Source of the DNA: Rhizobium brockwellii
GTDB taxonomy: Bacteria; Pseudomonadota; Alphaproteobacteria; Rhizobiales; Rhizobiaceae
Direction of reading: 5' to 3'
DNA: 64,000 nucleotides
Assembly (NCBI RefSeq): GCF_000769405.2
Contig: NZ_CP053439.1
Location: forward strand, 1,922,001 to 1,986,000
Each line of letters starts with the position of its first letter. Within the stretch, counting starts at the first letter, position 1. Below the pieces are notes generated by a model. The model saw only the letters and a program-made list of their open reading frames with translations. It made no database searches and was not told the DNA's origin. The position numbers were made by a program, and so were the translations under genes. Shown here piece by piece: positions 51,615 to 64,000 of the stretch.

Positions 51615-54600
51615 TCAGTCGAGAAACGGCAAGACGATGAGCGTGCCTGGATCGAGGTTGTGGCGGATGCACACATCCTGTGCCAGCGTAAAATACCGTT
51701 CCGCCTCGTCCATGTCGTCATGCTCGAGGCTCAGTGTCGCCAAGCCATCATAGCACGGAAAGAGCAGTTGCGGTTCATCAATTTCCTTCGCAACCTCAAG
51801 GGCTTCTTCGTAATACTTACGAGCTAGCTTCGGCTGCCCGTGGCATTGATGAATCTGGCCCAGCACGATCAGCGGCACGGAGAGATGGTCTCGCTGATCG
51901 AGCGCCCGGTCGATTTCGACGGCCTTCTCCGCCGCCGGTACACCCTCGGCGGCGCAGCGATCGGTGAAGGTACAGCAGGCAACGGCGAGGTTGGCGAGAA
52001 GGCGCGCCTGGAAGCCGAGATCGCCGATACGGGTCGCGAGCTCCAGTCCGCGCCGGCAGATTCTGATGGCGTTGGCCGGGTCGACGATCGTGTAGAGAAC
52101 GCCGAGATTGGAATAGGCGCGACAGGCGGCACTTTGCAGATCGGCCTTTTCGGCAACCGAGAGGCTGCGCTCCACTTCCTGTACGGCCTCGCGGCGACGC
52201 CCGAGCCGCGCAAAGGCCGCACCCTTGGTATTCAGCGCCTCCGCCATCGCTCGCGCCGTCTCCCGTCCGGCCTCGGTCGTCCCGTCGATCGGCAGTGTTT
52301 GCAGGCACTGCAGCGCCTGCGTCGCCCACTCTGCGGCAGCGGCCTGATCCCCCATGCGGAAGGCCAGATGGCCGCGCTCCTGCAGGACATGTGCACGTTC
52401 GACTGGCGCATCGATCGTTGCGATCATCGCTTCGGCCTCGGCCAAATGTGTCTCCGCTTGATCGCGGCGTCCTGCATCGAGATGCAAACGGCCGATCTTG
52501 CGTAATATCCGCGCCGCGGCGATAGGATCGTCTTTGGTGCGGTGGATCGCCAGCGCTCGCTGATAATGGTTCAAGGCGGCGTCGCGCAGGCCCGCTGGGC
52601 CGCAGAGATCGGCAAGACGCTCCAGGAGCGCCTGTTGCTCCGGTGTCACCTCCGCCTCGTTTGCGAGGGCCGCAAGGGCCTGACGGTAGAGGCGCATTGC
52701 ATCGTCATTGGCGTAGGCCTTGCGCGCCAGATCGCCCGCCGCCATCAGATAGGTTGCGCCCTTGGCCTTTTCTGCGGTCAGGCTGAAGTGATGGCCGAGC
52801 TGCGCCAGATGTTCCGGCCGGTCGGGCGCTGCACCATATTGACGTTCCAGAGCCTGACCGATCCGTCGATGAAGCTCTATACGCCGTTGTAGCAGGAGAT
52901 TGTTGTAGATGACGTCGTGCATCAGCGTCTGGCTGAAGCGATAGCCCGGCGACCCGCCGGCATCGGGCCCGCGCAATTCCTCGATGATATTGGCATCGCA
53001 GAGATGATCCAATGCGGCATCGATGGCGGCCGGGTCCGTGGCGATGGTGCGGAGCAGGGCGGTATCGAACTTCGGGCCGACCACCGCCGCCTCTTGCGCC
53101 AGCCGTCTGATGTCCTGCGGCAGACGATCGACGCGGGCAAGCAACAGGGCTTGCAGGTTCACCGGGATATCGACGTCCGTGTCTTCCGCTGCGACATGCC
53201 AGCGCTGGCCGTCATTGTGCAACGTGCCCATGTCGATCAGCGCCCGAAGGATTTCTTCGATGAAAAGCGGATTGCCGCCGGCTCGGTCGAGGATGCGCTT
53301 GCGCATCGTGACCGGCAACTTGCCATGATCCTCGCCGAAAAACGCAGCAAGCAGCTTCTGCCCGTCGGCCGCAAACAGTGGTGCAAGACGCTGCACGGTG
53401 ACGCTGACACGATTGGAGTCCAGTGGGTCAGTCTGTGATGTCGGTCGGTAGACCGCCAGCAGCATCAACCGGCTGCGCTCCAGCCGGTCCATCATGAAGC
53501 GAAGCACTTCCAGCGAGGCGGCATCCGCCCAGTGCAGATCCTCGATGACGAGCAGCAGGGGACCTTGCGCCAGCCGCCGCTCGAAGACGGTGCGGACGCC
53601 ATAGAAGATCTGCCGCCGCAGCTGCTCCGGCTCGATGTACCGCAAAGCGCCATCGGGATCGCCGAGACCGAGGACATGCAGAAAGAGCGGCAAAAGTCCC
53701 TCGACCTCCTCCTGCGTCAGATCGAGCGCGCGGAACCCCGTTGCCAGCAATTGGCGCGCCCTGTCGAGATCGTCCCGCTCGCCAATGCCGTAGGCGCTGC
53801 GCACGACCGCGCCGAGCGTGCCATAGGATTGTTCGCCGAGGGGAGAGCAGGTGGCTTTGCGGATGGCGAGGCCCTGAAATTGGGCGGCATTGCTGGCTAT
53901 CGCGACGAATTCATTGACCAGCCGCGACTTGCCGATGCCCGCTTCGCCGATCAGACGGACAAGCTGCGCAGCACCGCCGCAGGCAAGATCGAGGCATGTC
54001 AGCAACCGCGACAGCTCCGTATCCCGTCCGATCATCGGCGCCTGAAGGCCGAAACTTTCGAGTCCGCGCGCCGTATGCGGCGCTTCCGACAGCCCTGTCA
54101 GCCGGTGGACAAGGACGTTGCCGCTTTTGCCACGCAACGCCTGCGCGCCGAGACTCTCGAAGGCAAAGGCATGGCGGGTGAGGCGATAGGTCAGCGGCCC
54201 GACAAGAATATCGTTTTCACCGGCCATGGATTGCAGGCGTTGGGCGGTGTTTACCGTGTCGCCGGTCACCGAATAGGATTTTGTACTGACCGCGCCGAAG
54301 CCGCCGGTGACGACAGGGCCGCTATTGATGCCGATATGCAGACGCAGCGGCACGCCGGCGCGGGCGCGCCAGCGCTCGCCGACCTGCGTCGCCCGACCGA
54401 TCATATCGAGTGCGGCACCAAGTGCCCGGACGGGATCGTCCTCATGAGCGACCGGCGCGCCGAACAGCGCCAGCAGCGCATCGCCGACGAACTTGTCGAC
54501 GAAGCCGCCATAGGCTTCGACTGCCTGGGTCATCTCTTCGAACAATTCGTTCTGCAGCACCCGCATGACTTCAGGGTCGATCTGCTCGCTCAACGTCGTG

Positions 54601-54869
54601 AAGCCGCAGAGATCGGCAAAGAGCACGGTCACCGGCCGCCGGTCGGCATCGTTGTCTGATTTATAGGATACCGCCTCGATCTTCGGCTTCGATGAGGATT
54701 GGATTTTGCCTGATATCGACGCGCCACATCCGGGGCAGAAGGCAAAATCGGGCTGACATGCATAGCCGCAGGCGGCGCAGGTGACAGGCTGCCTTGCGCC
54801 GCATCGCGGACAGAAAGCAAAACCACTCTGAATATCGAACCCGCAGCCGCTGCACTCCATCGGACGCAT
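51615..54869 (-). CDS. Zinc-ribbon / class III adenylate cyclase / ATPase / TPR protein
   Basis: A 1084-residue multidomain protein. Two zinc ribbons (CSGCGF..FCPRCG and CAACGY..FCPGCG, residues 6-50) lead to a class III cyclase (about 77-250) with metal Asp86 (LFADLCGFT) and Asp130 (KFVGDALLALFG) and the catalytic Asn/Arg helix GDTVNTAQRL, so it should make cAMP. An AAA/NB-ARC-like ATPase follows with Walker A GEAGIGKS, then IEDLHWADAASLE, and about 450 residues of TPR-like repeats. The layout resembles mammalian soluble adenylyl cyclase and bacterial relatives. The input signal is unknown. ATG 54860 is an alternative start. Confidence 0.92.
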   Translation of the reverse strand: MRPMECSGCGFDIQSGFAFCPRCGARQPVTCAACGYACQPDFAFCPGCGASISGKIQSSSKPKIEAVSYKSDNDADRRPVTVLFADLCGFTTLSEQIDPEVMRVLQNELFEEMTQAVEAYGGFVDKFVGDALLALFGAPVAHEDDPVRALGAALDMIGRATQVGERWRARAGVPLRLHIGINSGPVVTGGFGAVSTKSYSVTGDTVNTAQRLQSMAGENDILVGPLTYRLTRHAFAFESLGAQALRGKSGNVLVHRLTGLSEAPHTARGLESFGLQAPMIGRDTELSRLLTCLDLACGGAAQLVRLIGEAGIGKSRLVNEFVAIASNAAQFQGLAIRKATCSPLGEQSYGTLGAVVRSAYGIGERDDLDRARQLLATGFRALDLTQEEVEGLLPLFLHVLGLGDPDGALRYIEPEQLRRQIFYGVRTVFERRLAQGPLLLVIEDLHWADAASLEVLRFMMDRLERSRLMLLAVYRPTSQTDPLDSNRVSVTVQRLAPLFAADGQKLLAAFFGEDHGKLPVTMRKRILDRAGGNPLFIEEILRALIDMGTLHNDGQRWHVAAEDTDVDIPVNLQALLLARVDRLPQDIRRLAQEAAVVGPKFDTALLRTIATDPAAIDAALDHLCDANIIEELRGPDAGGSPGYRFSQTLMHDVIYNNLLLQRRIELHRRIGQALERQYGAAPDRPEHLAQLGHHFSLTAEKAKGATYLMAAGDLARKAYANDDAMRLYRQALAALANEAEVTPEQQALLERLADLCGPAGLRDAALNHYQRALAIHRTKDDPIAAARILRKIGRLHLDAGRRDQAETHLAEAEAMIATIDAPVERAHVLQERGHLAFRMGDQAAAAEWATQALQCLQTLPIDGTTEAGRETARAMAEALNTKGAAFARLGRRREAVQEVERSLSVAEKADLQSAACRAYSNLGVLYTIVDPANAIRICRRGLELATRIGDLGFQARLLANLAVACCTFTDRCAAEGVPAAEKAVEIDRALDQRDHLSVPLIVLGQIHQCHGQPKLARKYYEEALEVAKEIDEPQLLFPCYDGLATLSLEHDDMDEAERYFTLAQDVCIRHNLDPGTLIVLPFLD

Positions 54870-55066: not shown

Positions 55067-56773
55067 TTACTGCCGAAGGGCGTCGGCGAACCTTGCAACC
55101 CGGCAGTCAAAGAGCACCGGCCGGTCCACATTGATCATCTCCTCGATCCTGGCATCGAGTTCGCTCGGGCTCTCGCAGCGAAGGCCGACGGCGCCATAGG
55201 CTTCCGCGAGCTTGGTGAAATCGGGCAGCGAGGCCGAATAAGCGCGCGATCGACCATTGCCATCCGGTACCTGACGCCATTCTCGCGCCATGCCCGGATG
55301 CTCATCGCTCAAAATGAAGATCTTGATCGGCGCTTGATGTTGTATCGCCGTCGACAGCTCCTTCATCGTCGTTTGCACCGACGCGTCGCCGGCAATATCG
55401 ATGACAAGGCGGCCGGGATTTGCGATCTGCGCCCCCAGCGCGGCAGGAAGACCGAAACCCATAGTCCCCAGTCCCCCGGAGGTAATCCAGCGATTGGGTT
55501 CGTCGAAACCGAAGAACTGCGCCACCCACATCTGCTGACCGATCTCCGTGGCGATGATGGGGTCGTACGGCTTTGTCAGCGCATGCAGACGCTCCAGGGC
55601 ATGTTGCGGCATGATTGCATGGTCCAGCCGCTCGTAGGAAAACGAATGACGGGCTCGCCAATGATCGATCTGCGTCCACCACGCCCGCAATCGCTTCTGG
55701 TCGGGGACAGTGGAAAGCGACTGCCAGGCACGGATCATGTCCGCCAGCACATGCGCGGCGTCGCCTTGAATGCCGATATCGACGGGAACGCGTTTGTTGA
55801 TCGACGAGGCATCGATATCGATCTGGATCTTCTTCGAGCGCGGTGAAAACTCATGGACGCGCGAGATCGCAAGGTCGTCAAACCGCGCACCGATGGCGAC
55901 CATCAGATCGCACTCGCCAACTGCCATATTGGCTTCATGTGAGCCGTCCTGTCCGGCGACTCGCAGCCAGTTCGGCCCGGTGGCGGGATAGGCTCCAAGC
56001 CCCATGATGGTGGACGTTACGGGAAAGCCCGTGAGGTCGACGAACTCGCGCAACAATCTCGACGCCTCAGGTCCCGAATTGATGATGCCGCCGCCGATAT
56101 AGATGATGGGGCGCCGGGCTTCGGCCATCAATGCGACCGCCGACCGGATCGCGTTCTGATCGCCTTGCATTGCCGGCTGGTAGCGCGGCAGCGGAGCTAC
56201 GTTGTCAGGTGAGACGTAGATCCCGCTGGCAAACAGCACGTCCTTCGGCATGTCGACCAAAACAGGACCGGGTCGACCGGCCGCCGCGATCTGGAAAGCC
56301 AGATGGATCGTCTTGGCCAGATCGTCGACGTGTTTGACGAGGAAATTGTGCTTCGTGCAGGGACGGGTAATGCCGACCGTATCGCATTCCTGAAAAGCGT
56401 CCGTGCCGATCAGACTTGTCGGCACCTGGCCGGCGAGGCAGACGAGCGGAACGGAGTCCATAAGCGCATCCTGCAGCGCCGTAACCGCATTTGTAACGCC
56501 TGGTCCCGATGTCACCAGCATGACGCCAACTCGTCCCGTCGAGCGGGCATAGCCTTCGGCGGCGTGTCCGGCGCCTTGCTCATGGCGCACCAGGAAATGT
56601 TTGATGTCCTCCTGTTGGAAGATTTCGTCATAGATCGGCAGCACCGCTGCGCCGGGGTAACCGAAAATGTGTTCGACACCGTTGTCGCGCAGCGCTTGCA
56701 GAACGATCTCGCCGCCGTTCATGAGACGATCAGAGGGCTTGTTGAGGAAAGAGTTGGCTGTCTCGCCGGTCAT
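55067..56773 (-). CDS. Acetolactate-synthase-like thiamine-diphosphate enzyme
   Basis: A 568-residue enzyme of the AHAS large-subunit family. TPP glutamate Glu65 is in VRHEQGAGHAAEGYAR, and TSGPGVTNAVTALQDALMDSVPLVCLAGQVP is typical AHAS. The TPP-metal motif GDAS (462-465) is followed 23 residues later by SD (489-490) in ILSDEHPGM, where AHAS has NN, so the metal site is altered. No regulatory small subunit gene is adjacent. ATG 56773 starts the conserved part. A peptide attenuator with Val/Leu/Ile codons precedes it, which supports a branched-chain amino acid role. It is most likely a second AHAS. Confidence 0.88.
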   Translation of the reverse strand: MTGETANSFLNKPSDRLMNGGEIVLQALRDNGVEHIFGYPGAAVLPIYDEIFQQEDIKHFLVRHEQGAGHAAEGYARSTGRVGVMLVTSGPGVTNAVTALQDALMDSVPLVCLAGQVPTSLIGTDAFQECDTVGITRPCTKHNFLVKHVDDLAKTIHLAFQIAAAGRPGPVLVDMPKDVLFASGIYVSPDNVAPLPRYQPAMQGDQNAIRSAVALMAEARRPIIYIGGGIINSGPEASRLLREFVDLTGFPVTSTIMGLGAYPATGPNWLRVAGQDGSHEANMAVGECDLMVAIGARFDDLAISRVHEFSPRSKKIQIDIDASSINKRVPVDIGIQGDAAHVLADMIRAWQSLSTVPDQKRLRAWWTQIDHWRARHSFSYERLDHAIMPQHALERLHALTKPYDPIIATEIGQQMWVAQFFGFDEPNRWITSGGLGTMGFGLPAALGAQIANPGRLVIDIAGDASVQTTMKELSTAIQHQAPIKIFILSDEHPGMAREWRQVPDGNGRSRAYSASLPDFTKLAEAYGAVGLRCESPSELDARIEEMINVDRPVLFDCRVARFADALRQ

Positions 56774-56817
56774 ATCTGGGTTCCGTCGTGAGTGAGGTGA
56801 TAGTTGCGACGGGGCAT

Positions 56818-56840
56818 AAAAAAAGGCCCCGTCAGGGACC
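56818..56840 (-). terminator. Attenuator terminator between the leader peptide and the AHAS-like gene
   Basis: On the minus strand GGTCCC-TGAC-GGGGCC (one G-U pair) is followed directly by T7. It lies 34 bases after the leader-peptide stop and 45 bases before the AHAS-like start, the correct place for a transcription attenuator. Confidence 0.85.
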
Positions 56841-56874
56841 TGTTTTCGGCGCATGGGTGGCTATTGCCGGACGA

Positions 56875-56931
56875 TCAGACCGTCCTGCCCATGCGCGATA
56901 TCACGACTACGAGAACCATTGCGATTTTCAT
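56875..56931 (-). CDS. Leader peptide with branched-chain amino acid codons (ilv-type attenuator)
   Basis: An 18-residue frame MKIAMVLVVVISRMGRTV with GGAGG upstream of its ATG at 56931. The run IAMVLVVVI places Ile, Val, Leu, Val, Val, Val and Ile codons within nine positions, with another Val as the last codon. A ribosome stalled there for lack of Val/Leu/Ile-tRNA would free the downstream RNA from the terminator at 56818-56840. It sits between the LacI gene end (57093) and the AHAS-like gene. Confidence 0.85.
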   Translation of the reverse strand: MKIAMVLVVVISRMGRTV

Positions 56932-57092
56932 GGGCGATAGAGCTACCTCCGAATCTACACGTCGTCAACGACGTCTCTGCGTAGATTGTATCTGCGGTTG
57001 AGAATATTTGAGATCGGTAGGGTAGCCAGTGACGAGGCAAGGGCAGGGGCGATCCGTTCGCCAGCCTATCTGGCCCGGCGCGAACCCAGGTT

Positions 57093-58187
57093 CTATGACG
57101 AGGTATGGGCGCCATCGAGGATCTGCCGCGCCTCGGCCCGCGGCGCGGCGACGGAATGACGCTTAACGAGCGAGCATTCGAGCTTCGCGATTGGATAGCG
57201 CTTGCCCGGTGTACTTTCCGGGTTGAGATGTTCGATCGCCCATTGCCCCATGGCAAGATGTGGAAGGACCGAAGTCGTCAGCGGCGGTACGAGATGTCGT
57301 GAAATTTCTTCGTCGTCATAACCCACCACCGACATGTCCTGGGGAATGCGAAGCCCTGCATCCTTGAGCGCTTCGTAGCACCCGATGGCAGTGCGGTCGT
57401 TCTGGCAGAAGATCGCGGTGGGCGGCTCTTTCAGAGCAAGCAGTTTCATCGTGGAGGCATAGCCGGCACTGGCCGACCAGTCGCCTTCAATGACCAATTC
57501 AGGATCGAAGGGTATATCGGCGGTCGCTAGGGCGCGGCGATATCCCGTCAGCCGGTCCTGCGCAGCCTGCATCCAGATTTCGCCGGTGATCGTCGCGATG
57601 CGGTGGTGTCCGTGCGTGATCAGGTGCCGGGTGGAGCTCTGCCCTCCCGCGATCTCGCTCGGCACCACGGCGGGAAAGGCATGGTCGGCCGTATAACAGT
57701 TCAGCAGGACCGTCGGGATGTTGAGCTCGCAGACATAGGAGGGAAGCTCTACCTGGCGGGTATAGATCGTCATATAAATGAGCGCCGATATGCCTCCGCA
57801 CGTCAACGCCTCGATTGCCTTCGGCTCCATGACGGGATCACTGAGCGTCTGGGTTACCAAAAGGACATTGCCGGCGTTCCAGGAGGCTTGCCGCGCGCCT
57901 TCGATCGCAACGATCGCTTCCGGGCTGGTGGCGAGCTGATCGACGGCGAAGCCGATGACGTTGTCCAGTCCCGAATAAGAGGCCTTCGTTGCATAGGTCT
58001 TCTCCATGTAGCCGAGCTCGCGCGCCGCCTCCCATACGCGATCGCGCGTCTGCTGGGAGATACGGGTGCCGGGCGTGTCGTTGAGGACGAAGGAGACGGC
58101 CGCCTGCGAGCAGCCAGCTGCGGCGGCGATATCCATCATCGTCACACGCACAGGCTTATTCCTCTTTTGGGTCTTGGGTTTTCGCAT
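57093..58187 (-). CDS. LacI family transcriptional regulator
   Basis: A 364-residue LacI/GalR repressor with a basic N-terminal extension, then VTMMDIAAAAGCSQAAVSFVLNDTPG (helix-turn-helix) and a sugar-binding-type effector domain (IGFAVDQLATSPEAIVAIEGARQ ... VVGYDDEEISRHLVPPLTTS). It is divergent from the CUT2 transporter operon and very likely controls it, with the 17-bp palindrome at 58244 as site. The gene ends 162 bases before the ilv-type leader, which appears to be a separate transcription unit. Confidence 0.93.
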   Translation of the reverse strand: MRKPKTQKRNKPVRVTMMDIAAAAGCSQAAVSFVLNDTPGTRISQQTRDRVWEAARELGYMEKTYATKASYSGLDNVIGFAVDQLATSPEAIVAIEGARQASWNAGNVLLVTQTLSDPVMEPKAIEALTCGGISALIYMTIYTRQVELPSYVCELNIPTVLLNCYTADHAFPAVVPSEIAGGQSSTRHLITHGHHRIATITGEIWMQAAQDRLTGYRRALATADIPFDPELVIEGDWSASAGYASTMKLLALKEPPTAIFCQNDRTAIGCYEALKDAGLRIPQDMSVVGYDDEEISRHLVPPLTTSVLPHLAMGQWAIEHLNPESTPGKRYPIAKLECSLVKRHSVAAPRAEARQILDGAHTSS

Positions 58188-62624: not shown

Positions 62625-62822
62625 CCTAATGAAATAGCCTCTCAGACCGCTGAAGATGCGGCTATCGCCGATTGGCGTTACGATTTAGATATCAATGTGT
62701 TCGATGGCGAAGTTACGACTTCGGTAGAGTATGAATTCGAGATTTCCCGATGTACAATTGTCGAGATGTCTTGCCTGAGGCTGCGCGTCCAATTCGGCAT
62801 TACACACATCAGGTTTGATTGA
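62625..62822 (+). other. AT-rich open frame, possible gene remnant
   Basis: About 65 codons without a stop and without a convincing start, from after TAG near 62624 to TGA 62820-62822. The translation includes DAAIADWRYDLDINVFDG and EVTTSVEYEFEISR, which looks protein-like and is lower in GC than the rest. It overlaps the end of the convergent helicase-nuclease gene by 14 bases. No family recognised; it could be a truncated gene left by the IS event. Confidence 0.3.
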
Positions 62823-64000
62823 GAAAAGTCAGCATGCCTCCGAAATCGATCAAGGAACCCTTCTCTTGCAAGAGCACAATCCGGGACTCCACCAGTTCCT
62901 TTAACTGACTACTCGTTGACTTGAACCCAAGCCCGCGCGCGACCGCATTCACCGCCTGATCTACGGTGGCCCCGAGGCTCGTTCTGATGACTGTGATAAG
63001 CCCTTCGTCAATTTCCATCGGCGGCAGCATTTCGATCCGACGCAGGCTGAGAGACGTGACGCCGCTACGATCTCTGAGCGTGATTTCCTTGTCCGGCCAA
63101 AGCAGAAACTCTCCGTCGCGCACGATCTCCTGAGAATTCTGGGCGATCGTGATCGCCGCGCCGACATGGGCATCGATCCGGTTTCCCGCCCGCTGAAGAC
63201 CCCAGGCCGACCTGATGCGGGTGACGACCTCGTCCTGATGCACTGGTCCTTCTGCTCCGACCGTTTGCTTTACCAGCGCGATCACCACGCCGATCGGCGC
63301 TTCGTGAAGTTCGCCTACGATATTCGGTCGCAGCACGGCCTCCTGATACAAGGTTGCGCTCGAAATTTCGTCGACGATAACCGGCTGCAGACCAATCTCT
63401 GTAACGTCCGCACGTTCGATAGTGACGACCTCGACCGGTACCGCTCGCCTCGACAGGTGTTCCTCTGTTCCCGACCTGACGTCGGCCTTGGCCCGCTCGA
63501 TGGCGGCAACGAGGCGTTCAAGTTCCGCTTTGGGCCTTTGGAACCAGTCTGCACTCCAGATGCGATAGATATTCCAGCCATGATCCTCGAGGACCGCCTG
63601 TCGAAGCCGGTCTCGGTCACGAGCCGAACGCGAGTCATGGTATGCGGCGCCGTCGCATTCGATCCCCAGAATATATCTGCCCGGTATCTGCTCGTCGGCC
63701 ACCGCCAGATCTATGAAGAACCCGGCGATTCCAACCTGCGGATGAACCTGATAGCCCCTCTCCTTAAGCGCAGCCATGACCTGTTCTTCAAAGACGCTGT
63801 CCATGCCACGGTCGGTGCGCTGGGTCATCGAAAGCCTGCCCGTCCGAGCGTAATGGAGAAACAGTTTGAATGCGAAGACGCCTTTGCCTTTTCCACGTTC
63901 GAGATCGATGTCCTCGTCGGTGATCGAAGCGTATACCTCGCAGCGCCGCTTCGCGCGGCTGATAAGAACATTGAGACGACGTTCGCCTCCCTCGGCTCCC
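62809..64000 (-). CDS. C-terminal part of a helicase / Vsr-like nuclease / DUF3320 protein (cut by window edge)
   Basis: The frame is open to the right edge, so the Met at 63828 is internal. At the edge it reads GGERRLNVLISRAKRRCEVYAS, the end of a superfamily 1 helicase (motif VI). A Vsr/MTES_1575-type endonuclease domain follows (VFEEQVMAALKERGYQVHPQVG, FFIDLAVAD, GIECDGAAYHDSRSARDRDRLR, GWNIYRIWSADWF), then DUF3320 (SSATLYQEAVLRPNIVGELHEAPIGVVIALVKQTVG) and a C-terminal domain. This order is that of large DUF4011-helicase-Vsr proteins reported as anti-phage systems. At least 396 residues are visible; the full protein is usually well over 1,000. It lies next to an IS remnant. Confidence 0.85.
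   Translation of the reverse strand, partial: GAEGGERRLNVLISRAKRRCEVYASITDEDIDLERGKGKGVFAFKLFLHYARTGRLSMTQRTDRGMDSVFEEQVMAALKERGYQVHPQVGIAGFFIDLAVADEQIPGRYILGIECDGAAYHDSRSARDRDRLRQAVLEDHGWNIYRIWSADWFQRPKAELERLVAAIERAKADVRSGTEEHLSRRAVPVEVVTIERADVTEIGLQPVIVDEISSATLYQEAVLRPNIVGELHEAPIGVVIALVKQTVGAEGPVHQDEVVTRIRSAWGLQRAGNRIDAHVGAAITIAQNSQEIVRDGEFLLWPDKEITLRDRSGVTSLSLRRIEMLPPMEIDEGLITVIRTSLGATVDQAVNAVARGLGFKSTSSQLKELVESRIVLLQEKGSLIDFGGMLTFLNQT

Follow-up and report, generated by a model that had tools for sequence, protein, structure and literature searches.

A duplicated Atu_C8 leader, probably a branched-chain attenuator, before a lone acetolactate synthase paralogue in Rhizobium

Described attenuators and the leader element in the window

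In the trpL leader of Escherichia coli, a leader peptide with a Shine-Dalgarno start is followed by a terminator with a U run, and a stable 2:3 antiterminator is formed. The ilvIH attenuators of proteobacteria reportedly (Vitreschak 2004) consist of a leader peptide with branched-chain codons and a terminator, placed before ilvI. RNA sequencing of Agrobacterium reportedly revealed Atu_C8 (Wilms 2012). The rnTrpL leader of S. meliloti belongs to the trp operon and carries Trp codons. An excerpt of PMC2573895 tabulates, with reference to Vitreschak 2004, an 'ilvIH cis regulatory' element ahead of ilvIH in S. meliloti, and the Rfam family of Atu_C8, RF02502, appears in a benchmark list in an excerpt of PMC5913331. 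Excerpts of PMC10117765 and PMC7143759 present S. meliloti rnTrpL/peTrpL as an attenuator with a leaderless frame starting at the RNA 5' end and with a short terminated RNA. Among the papers listed, no title, abstract opening or excerpt identifies Atu_C8 as an ilvIH attenuator or reports a link to exporters; Wilms 2012 or Vitreschak 2004 may state it.

The window analysed here is a stretch of 64,000 nucleotides from Rhizobium brockwellii. Its minus strand carries the arrangement noticed in a sequence-only reading, i.e. an 18-codon leader frame and a hairpin with T7 before the start of an acetolactate synthase (AHAS)-like gene. The features are listed below.

56963..56968, minus strand: putative leader promoter -35 box TTGACG (from the TTGAC spacing across copies)
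56940..56945, minus strand: putative leader promoter -10 box TAGCTC, 17 nt past the -35 box and 8 nt ahead of the ATG (sequence and class consensus)
56875..56931, minus strand: leader reading frame MKIAMVLVVVISRMGRTV, probably leaderless; 18 codons at 56931-56878, stop TGA at 56877-56875
56808..56929, minus strand: full match to Rfam RF02502 Atu_C8, 110.2 bits
56888..56896, minus strand: hairpin P1 5' strand GCGCATGGG, within the leader frame (folding and leader alignment)
56849..56857, minus strand: hairpin P1 3' strand CCCATGCGC (folding and leader alignment)
56818..56841, minus strand: intrinsic terminator, hairpin AGGTCCC-TGAC-GGGGCCT (56841-56824) and T7 (56824-56818) (sequence, folds, present in the Rfam model)
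56807..56815, minus strand: post-terminator segment GCCCCGTCG, complement of the terminator loop and 3' arm TGACGGGGC (56834-56826) (duplex energy, covariation)
55067..56773, minus strand: lone AHAS large-subunit paralogue of 568 aa (TIGR00118)

The terminator sits between the leader frame and the AHAS start codon at 56773. The window stretch matched model positions 1-122 of 122 of RF02502 (E = 3.2e-25, gathering score 50 bits) with the same hairpins and terminator, and this was the sole Rfam match in the window above a gathering score. The 216-nt leader folds better than 200/200 dinucleotide shuffles (z -3.2), and both P1 and the terminator were recovered in an alignment of 104 distinct leaders. 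The C-terminal RMGRxV of the leader peptide coincides with the P1 5' strand. Rfam files Atu_C8 as type 'sRNA', whereas the window copy reads as a Leu/Ile/Val leader. Branched-chain leader peptide, terminator and position before ilvI are common to the family and the proteobacterial ilvIH attenuators; unlike the latter, the window copy precedes a lone paralogue, other copies precede an exporter, the leader is probably leaderless and an antiterminator is not evident. Leader peptide and U-run terminator are likewise shared with E. coli trpL, whose stable antiterminator and Shine-Dalgarno start are not evident in the window leader.

In the window frame 8/18 codons encode Ile, Val or Leu, and this codon run, which the sequence-only reading had expected in relatives of an attenuator leader, was indeed found to be kept in them. 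Codons 7-10 all encode Leu, Ile or Val in 44/44 distinct 18-codon ilvIH-type leaders, the only leaders covered by this count; codons 9 and 10 are always GTG, and changes in codons 7-10 are synonymous or between Leu and Ile only. In frame, single-base differences in these four codons leave the amino acid unchanged in 0.45-0.68 of pairwise cells, vs 0-0.18 in the other two frames. Among 19 'lone' leaders codons 6, 7, 9, 10 and 11 are branched-chain in 84-100% and codon 8 in 42%, and among 28 exporter leaders codons 6-10 in 82-100%, with classes set by a peptide rule that let the ilvIH-type L068 slip into the 'lone' set and with copies missed by the leader pattern excluded.

A TTGAC element is present 35-38 nt ahead of the leader ATG in 158/162 copies. 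With classes assigned by the downstream gene, this spacing occurs in 76/78 extra copies (classes A, B and C and MFS, see below; the remaining two at 31 nt) and in 82/84 ilvIH-type leaders (the remaining two at 34 and 14 nt), the latter being loci with an AHAS gene outside the extra copies and including repeats of one place (65 distinct in the compared stretch). Many ilvIH-type loci end inside the AHAS gene, hence ilvH is visible only in the longer ones (L210, L213-L216). From the TTGAC-to-ATG spacing the transcription start would be placed at the AUG, as published for S. meliloti rnTrpL (excerpt of PMC10117765), and the Rfam model starts at the G of the leader AUG. The leader is probably leaderless, with its AUG at or beside the RNA 5' end. 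The GGAGG at 56950-56946, which the sequence-only reading had listed with the leader frame, lies 14 nt from the ATG in the spacer between the -35 and -10 boxes, and GGAGG within 25 nt upstream of the ATG was found in 3/10 class-A leaders and 0/153 other leaders; on this position and its non-conservation it was rejected and is probably no ribosome site.

Spread of Atu_C8 and genes behind the extra copies

RF02502 was matched in 100/100 genus genomes, comprising 23 with one match, 75 with two and 2 with three, and in 193/199 family genomes. Outside the genus, the family is represented by 195 genomes, of which 185 have a single match, four have two and six have none; the six are 1.2-2.0 Mb in size, and some other small genomes do match. 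G277 and G280, two members of the family from outside the genus, carry a second match each. Matches were found in 77/150 genomes drawn from the order, with 23 over the cut-off. In the genome of the window a second match (121.8 bits, above the window copy) precedes ilvI-ilvH. The single TIGR00119 match of this genome, at G000:C1:2784726, is the one copy of ilvH and adjoins the housekeeping ilvI, confirming that the window AHAS gene stands without a small subunit. Atu_C8 is likely the ilvIH attenuator of rhizobia. An amino-acid attenuator tying the window gene to branched-chain supply had been proposed; a Leu/Ile/Val attenuator is the best reading in view of the conserved codon run, but its occurrence across the family goes against anything special to this gene, and the attenuator itself is an ordinary member of a known family.

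A total of 79 extra copies, the window's own included, were found in 77/100 genus genomes. Identification of the gene behind each copy by tblastn or reading frames revealed a lone acetolactate synthase paralogue for 28 copies, a Bcr/CflA-like exporter for 50 and another exporter for one. Class A (10 extra copies, window type) encodes proteins 86-93% identical to the window protein; class B (6 copies) and class C (12 copies) encode AHAS large subunits about 73% and about 68-70% identical to it, respectively. No ilvH was found after class A, B or C AHAS genes in the available flanks (~5.8 kb for class-C L217 and L218). The exporter L131, the sole representative scanned, has Bcr/CflA TIGR00710 as best NCBIfam match (178.6 bits, below the cut-off of 200.9). 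The rest of the 50 exporters were placed with L131 on the strength of similarities that range from 94% to 48%. The extra copy L189 precedes another MFS-like protein, as read from its sequence.

On plasmid pRetIE4803c of R. etli IE4803 a window-like leader is followed by a gene annotated Bcr/CflA; its product and the exporter L131 are 51% identical, across 75% of L131. In leader L219 of R. etli IE4803 (CP007644.1 155751-155965) the frame METMTIVVVVISRMGRG... seems by eye to be shifted after RMGR, which would bring its stop further downstream, close to the terminator. Leader L209 (G161:C22), from another genus of the family, is followed by a 427-aa AHAS frame lacking its middle, which matches query residues 1-193 and 371-559 only; ilvI-ilvH lies elsewhere in that genome (L210). 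As far as seen, the attenuator's spread within Rhizobium, before exporters and before an altered AHAS paralogue, is new.

Folding at the terminator and the post-terminator complement

With a probability of about 0.75 we read the element as a duplicated rhizobial ilvIH attenuator (Rfam Atu_C8), leaderless, in which opening of P1 at a halted ribosome would lower termination. RNA polymerase would start at the leader AUG, and a ribosome would load on the leaderless leader and read Val-Leu-Val-Val-Val-Ile. With charged Leu/Ile/Val tRNAs plentiful, the leader would be read through, P1 would re-form behind the ribosome and the terminator would free an RNA of ~114 nt. With charged tRNAs scarce, a ribosome halted near codons 9-11 would keep the P1 5' strand open, termination would be reduced and the AHAS paralogue transcribed. 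In read-through transcripts the loop and 3' arm of the terminator could pair with the segment just past the U run, a step special to duplicated copies. A ribosome halt at Val9-Ile11 with opening of P1 is compatible with the folding geometry; from there we infer the step to read-through.

Folding of the window RNA from any codon on gave the terminator, and P1 too while its 5' strand is free. To represent the moment of decision, the RNA was truncated ahead of the terminator 3' arm and masked codon by codon, with E. coli trpL as control. In the control, pairing of the 5' arm upstream went from 0.71 to 0.01-0.07. In the five rhizobial classes (class A comprising four distinct sequences) the terminator 5' arm was held upstream at 0.04-0.32 with the A site at codon 8 and at 0.34-0.61 at codons 10-12, without a clean fall (0.30-0.63 from codon 14, and also 0.31-0.72 at codons 2-4). 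Shuffled vs real linkers between P1 and terminator gave 0.29 vs 0.45 for the ilvIH type (48 rows, remaining ilvIH-type rows skipped at random), 0.26 vs 0.33 for lone (29 rows) and 0.16 vs 0.25 for exporter leaders (33 rows), and 0.34 vs 0.12 for the class-A leader L122. Masked-5'-end folds, alignment folding and codon-by-codon masking found no stable antiterminator, and the pairing seen is weak and little above linker shuffles. The check for a competing antiterminator fold was thus answered in part, by a weak rise in 5'-arm pairing but not by a stable structure, while the trp control worked. Long-range pairing between the Leu/Ile/Val codons and the region of the AHAS start, tested because one fold of the 216-nt leader had suggested it, was rejected since it did not stand out clearly from shuffles (mean z -1.6 in classes A/B with 3/16 below -2; -0.5 to 0.5 in class C, exporters and the ilvIH type).

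These folds bear on whether an antiterminator is needed. Leaderless translation and the position of the ribosome might instead act on RNA polymerase pausing or on Rho access, which would account for a stable 2:3 pairing being found in the trp control but not here, and for P1 and the terminator being able to form together in folds of the window RNA. However, kinetic, weak or pseudoknotted pairings can escape thermodynamic folding of short fragments, and masking of P1 does raise the 5'-arm probability; we regard a mechanism of this kind as possible, though on the unlikely side.

Compared with the Rfam model, most duplicated copies add a post-terminator complement. Such a complement to the loop and 3' arm of the terminator occurs in 78/79 extra copies vs 4/84 ilvIH-type leaders. 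A duplex energy of -15 kcal/mol or lower was found in 78/78 class A, B, C and exporter copies and in 4/84 ilvIH-type leaders, and was absent in L189; the duplex is more than 2 sd below shuffles in 75/78 of the former and below -2 sd in 2/84 of the latter (an earlier count with looser classes gave 29/30, 30/36 and 0/72 below -2 sd). The segment lies 2-3 nt past the U run in classes A and B and exporter L208, and 17-22 nt past it in class C and the other exporters. Among 61 distinct class-C and exporter sequences, aligned by sequence alone and with L208 left out, 97.4% of cells pair, and seven cells, at two of ten pairs, have changes on both sides. None of 500 re-dealings of partners reached 97.4% or seven both-side changes; their mean was still 96.5% paired because the columns vary little, so the covariation support rests on few changes. 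Sliding the complement by 1-3 columns left 34-55% paired. In the class-A copy L203 one base is lost on both strands of the pairing. As far as seen, this covarying complement is new.

The post-terminator pairing and the terminator hairpin are mutually exclusive, and since the segment lies past the U run, pairing would be expected to form too late to keep the same polymerase from terminating. The pairing may re-fold the read-through mRNA or be a target of the terminated RNA. The latter would suit Atu_C8 as mainly a trans-acting sRNA, whose leader frame and position before ilvI-type genes would mark its origin and whose terminated RNA would pair with mRNAs, its own read-through mRNA via the post-terminator segment among them. 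The Rfam type, the complement with its covariation in all A, B, C and MFS copies, and the precedent of rnTrpL, for which action of the attenuator RNA in trans on trpDC is published (excerpt of PMC7143759) while a trans role of the window copy is only conceivable, point that way. A pure sRNA would have no need of a codon run conserved at the protein level, however, and the ilvIH type, the widest-spread form, is mostly without the complement, and we judge a mainly trans-acting role unlikely.

The lone AHAS paralogue and its neighbours

The window protein passed TIGR00118 (666 bits, cut-off 538), and its best match was NF006581 (PRK09107; 917.5 bits, under the cut-off of 974). It is 68% identical to the housekeeping IlvI of the same genome. 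In the tree, ilvI forms one side of a 100/100 branch, and classes A and B together and class C alone each form one group (100/100 each). The lone types and L211, a lone copy from another genus, stand apart from ilvI; class C is joined with A and B weakly (88/32), and the root is a midpoint. A single duplication followed by divergence is the simplest reading of the lone AHAS types. Judged by the tree, the window enzyme is an ilvI paralogue and not a sugar enzyme.

A LacI-type regulator (57093-58187, minus strand) lies immediately upstream of the leader and is co-directional with it. It is found there in 6/9 class-A relatives, and within the available flanks no LacI gene was found upstream in class-B loci or in the four class-C places searched; the leader stays with the gene. 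A sugar-catabolic role tied to the LacI/CUT2 neighbours was rejected, as LacI is inconstant upstream and the leader constant. The leader had been taken to argue against a sugar-catabolic TPP enzyme; the outcome stood, on the tree, but the inference from the leader is weaker than it looks because the same leader precedes exporters in 51/79 extra copies and active-site residues are lost. A 1084-aa protein (51615-54869, minus strand), by eye a zinc-ribbon, nucleotide-cyclase, AAA/TPR regulator, adjoins the AHAS gene in 6/9 class-A relatives, as far as flanks reach. The frame at 62809-63828 (minus strand) encodes a 339-aa protein that combines a REase_MTES_1575 endonuclease domain with a DUF3320 stretch.

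Analysis of active-site residues revealed that the window AHAS keeps the catalytic Glu and the PKDV Lys. FDDL replaces the FDDR of ilvI and SDE its NNQ, with ILSDEHPGMAREW at ilvI NNQYMGMVRQW, whereas ilvI is canonical in 12/12 shown; alignment to yeast AHAS chains found the same positions replaced. We take the FDDR Arg to be the acceptor Arg and Asn-Asn of NNQ to be TPP/Mg motif residues; the window enzyme has neither. Among full-length class-A proteins FDDL occurs in 9/9 and SD in 8/9 (R. pisi, L040, has RN). Class-C proteins have lost FDDR and the Trp loop in 12/12 cases, and class B is canonical in 9/9, a set that includes additional loci beyond the extra-copy count. Median omega was 0.19 in class A (36 pairs, 0.13-0.27), 0.14 in class B (34 pairs) and 0.25 in class C (66 pairs). 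The corresponding medians were 0.04 (20 pairs) among seven near ilvI of similar dS and 0.12 in a wide set of ilvI (dS 0.7). By these ratios the window enzyme is under purifying selection.

Loss of the acceptor Arg and the Mg-motif Asn-Asn in class A, loss of the active-site loop and Trp in class C, a class-A frame ending at 344 aa (L186), the missing middle in L209 and an omega above that of near ilvI would all be expected if the window copy were a decaying duplicate, its leader kept by descent and its enzyme heading for loss. The class-A median omega is nevertheless far below 1, and promoter, leader and complement are present in 10/10 class-A copies; we consider decay rather improbable.

The evidence for duplication, complement and altered enzyme may be joined, tentatively and as an unlikely extension of the attenuator reading, into a portable two-stage RNA switch in Rhizobium. 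Stage one would sense Leu/Ile/Val tRNA charging. Stage two, gained on duplication, would be the covarying terminator/post-terminator pairing, which would re-fold the read-through mRNA or let the terminated leader RNA silence it in trans; the module would then have been placed before a catalytically re-shaped AHAS paralogue and exporters. If this is true, efflux would be opened when branched-chain tRNA charging fails, e.g. in the presence of a toxic analogue or of an inhibitor of an aminoacyl-tRNA synthetase. For the family as a whole, an Rfam 'sRNA' gains a likely job as ilvIH attenuator, and an amino-acid attenuator has moved to new genes, exporters included, inside one bacterial genus. The covarying complement overlapping the terminator in duplicated copies offers a testable second control layer, and the lone AHAS paralogues, which are under selection although key residues are lost, are candidate enzymes for a changed reaction.
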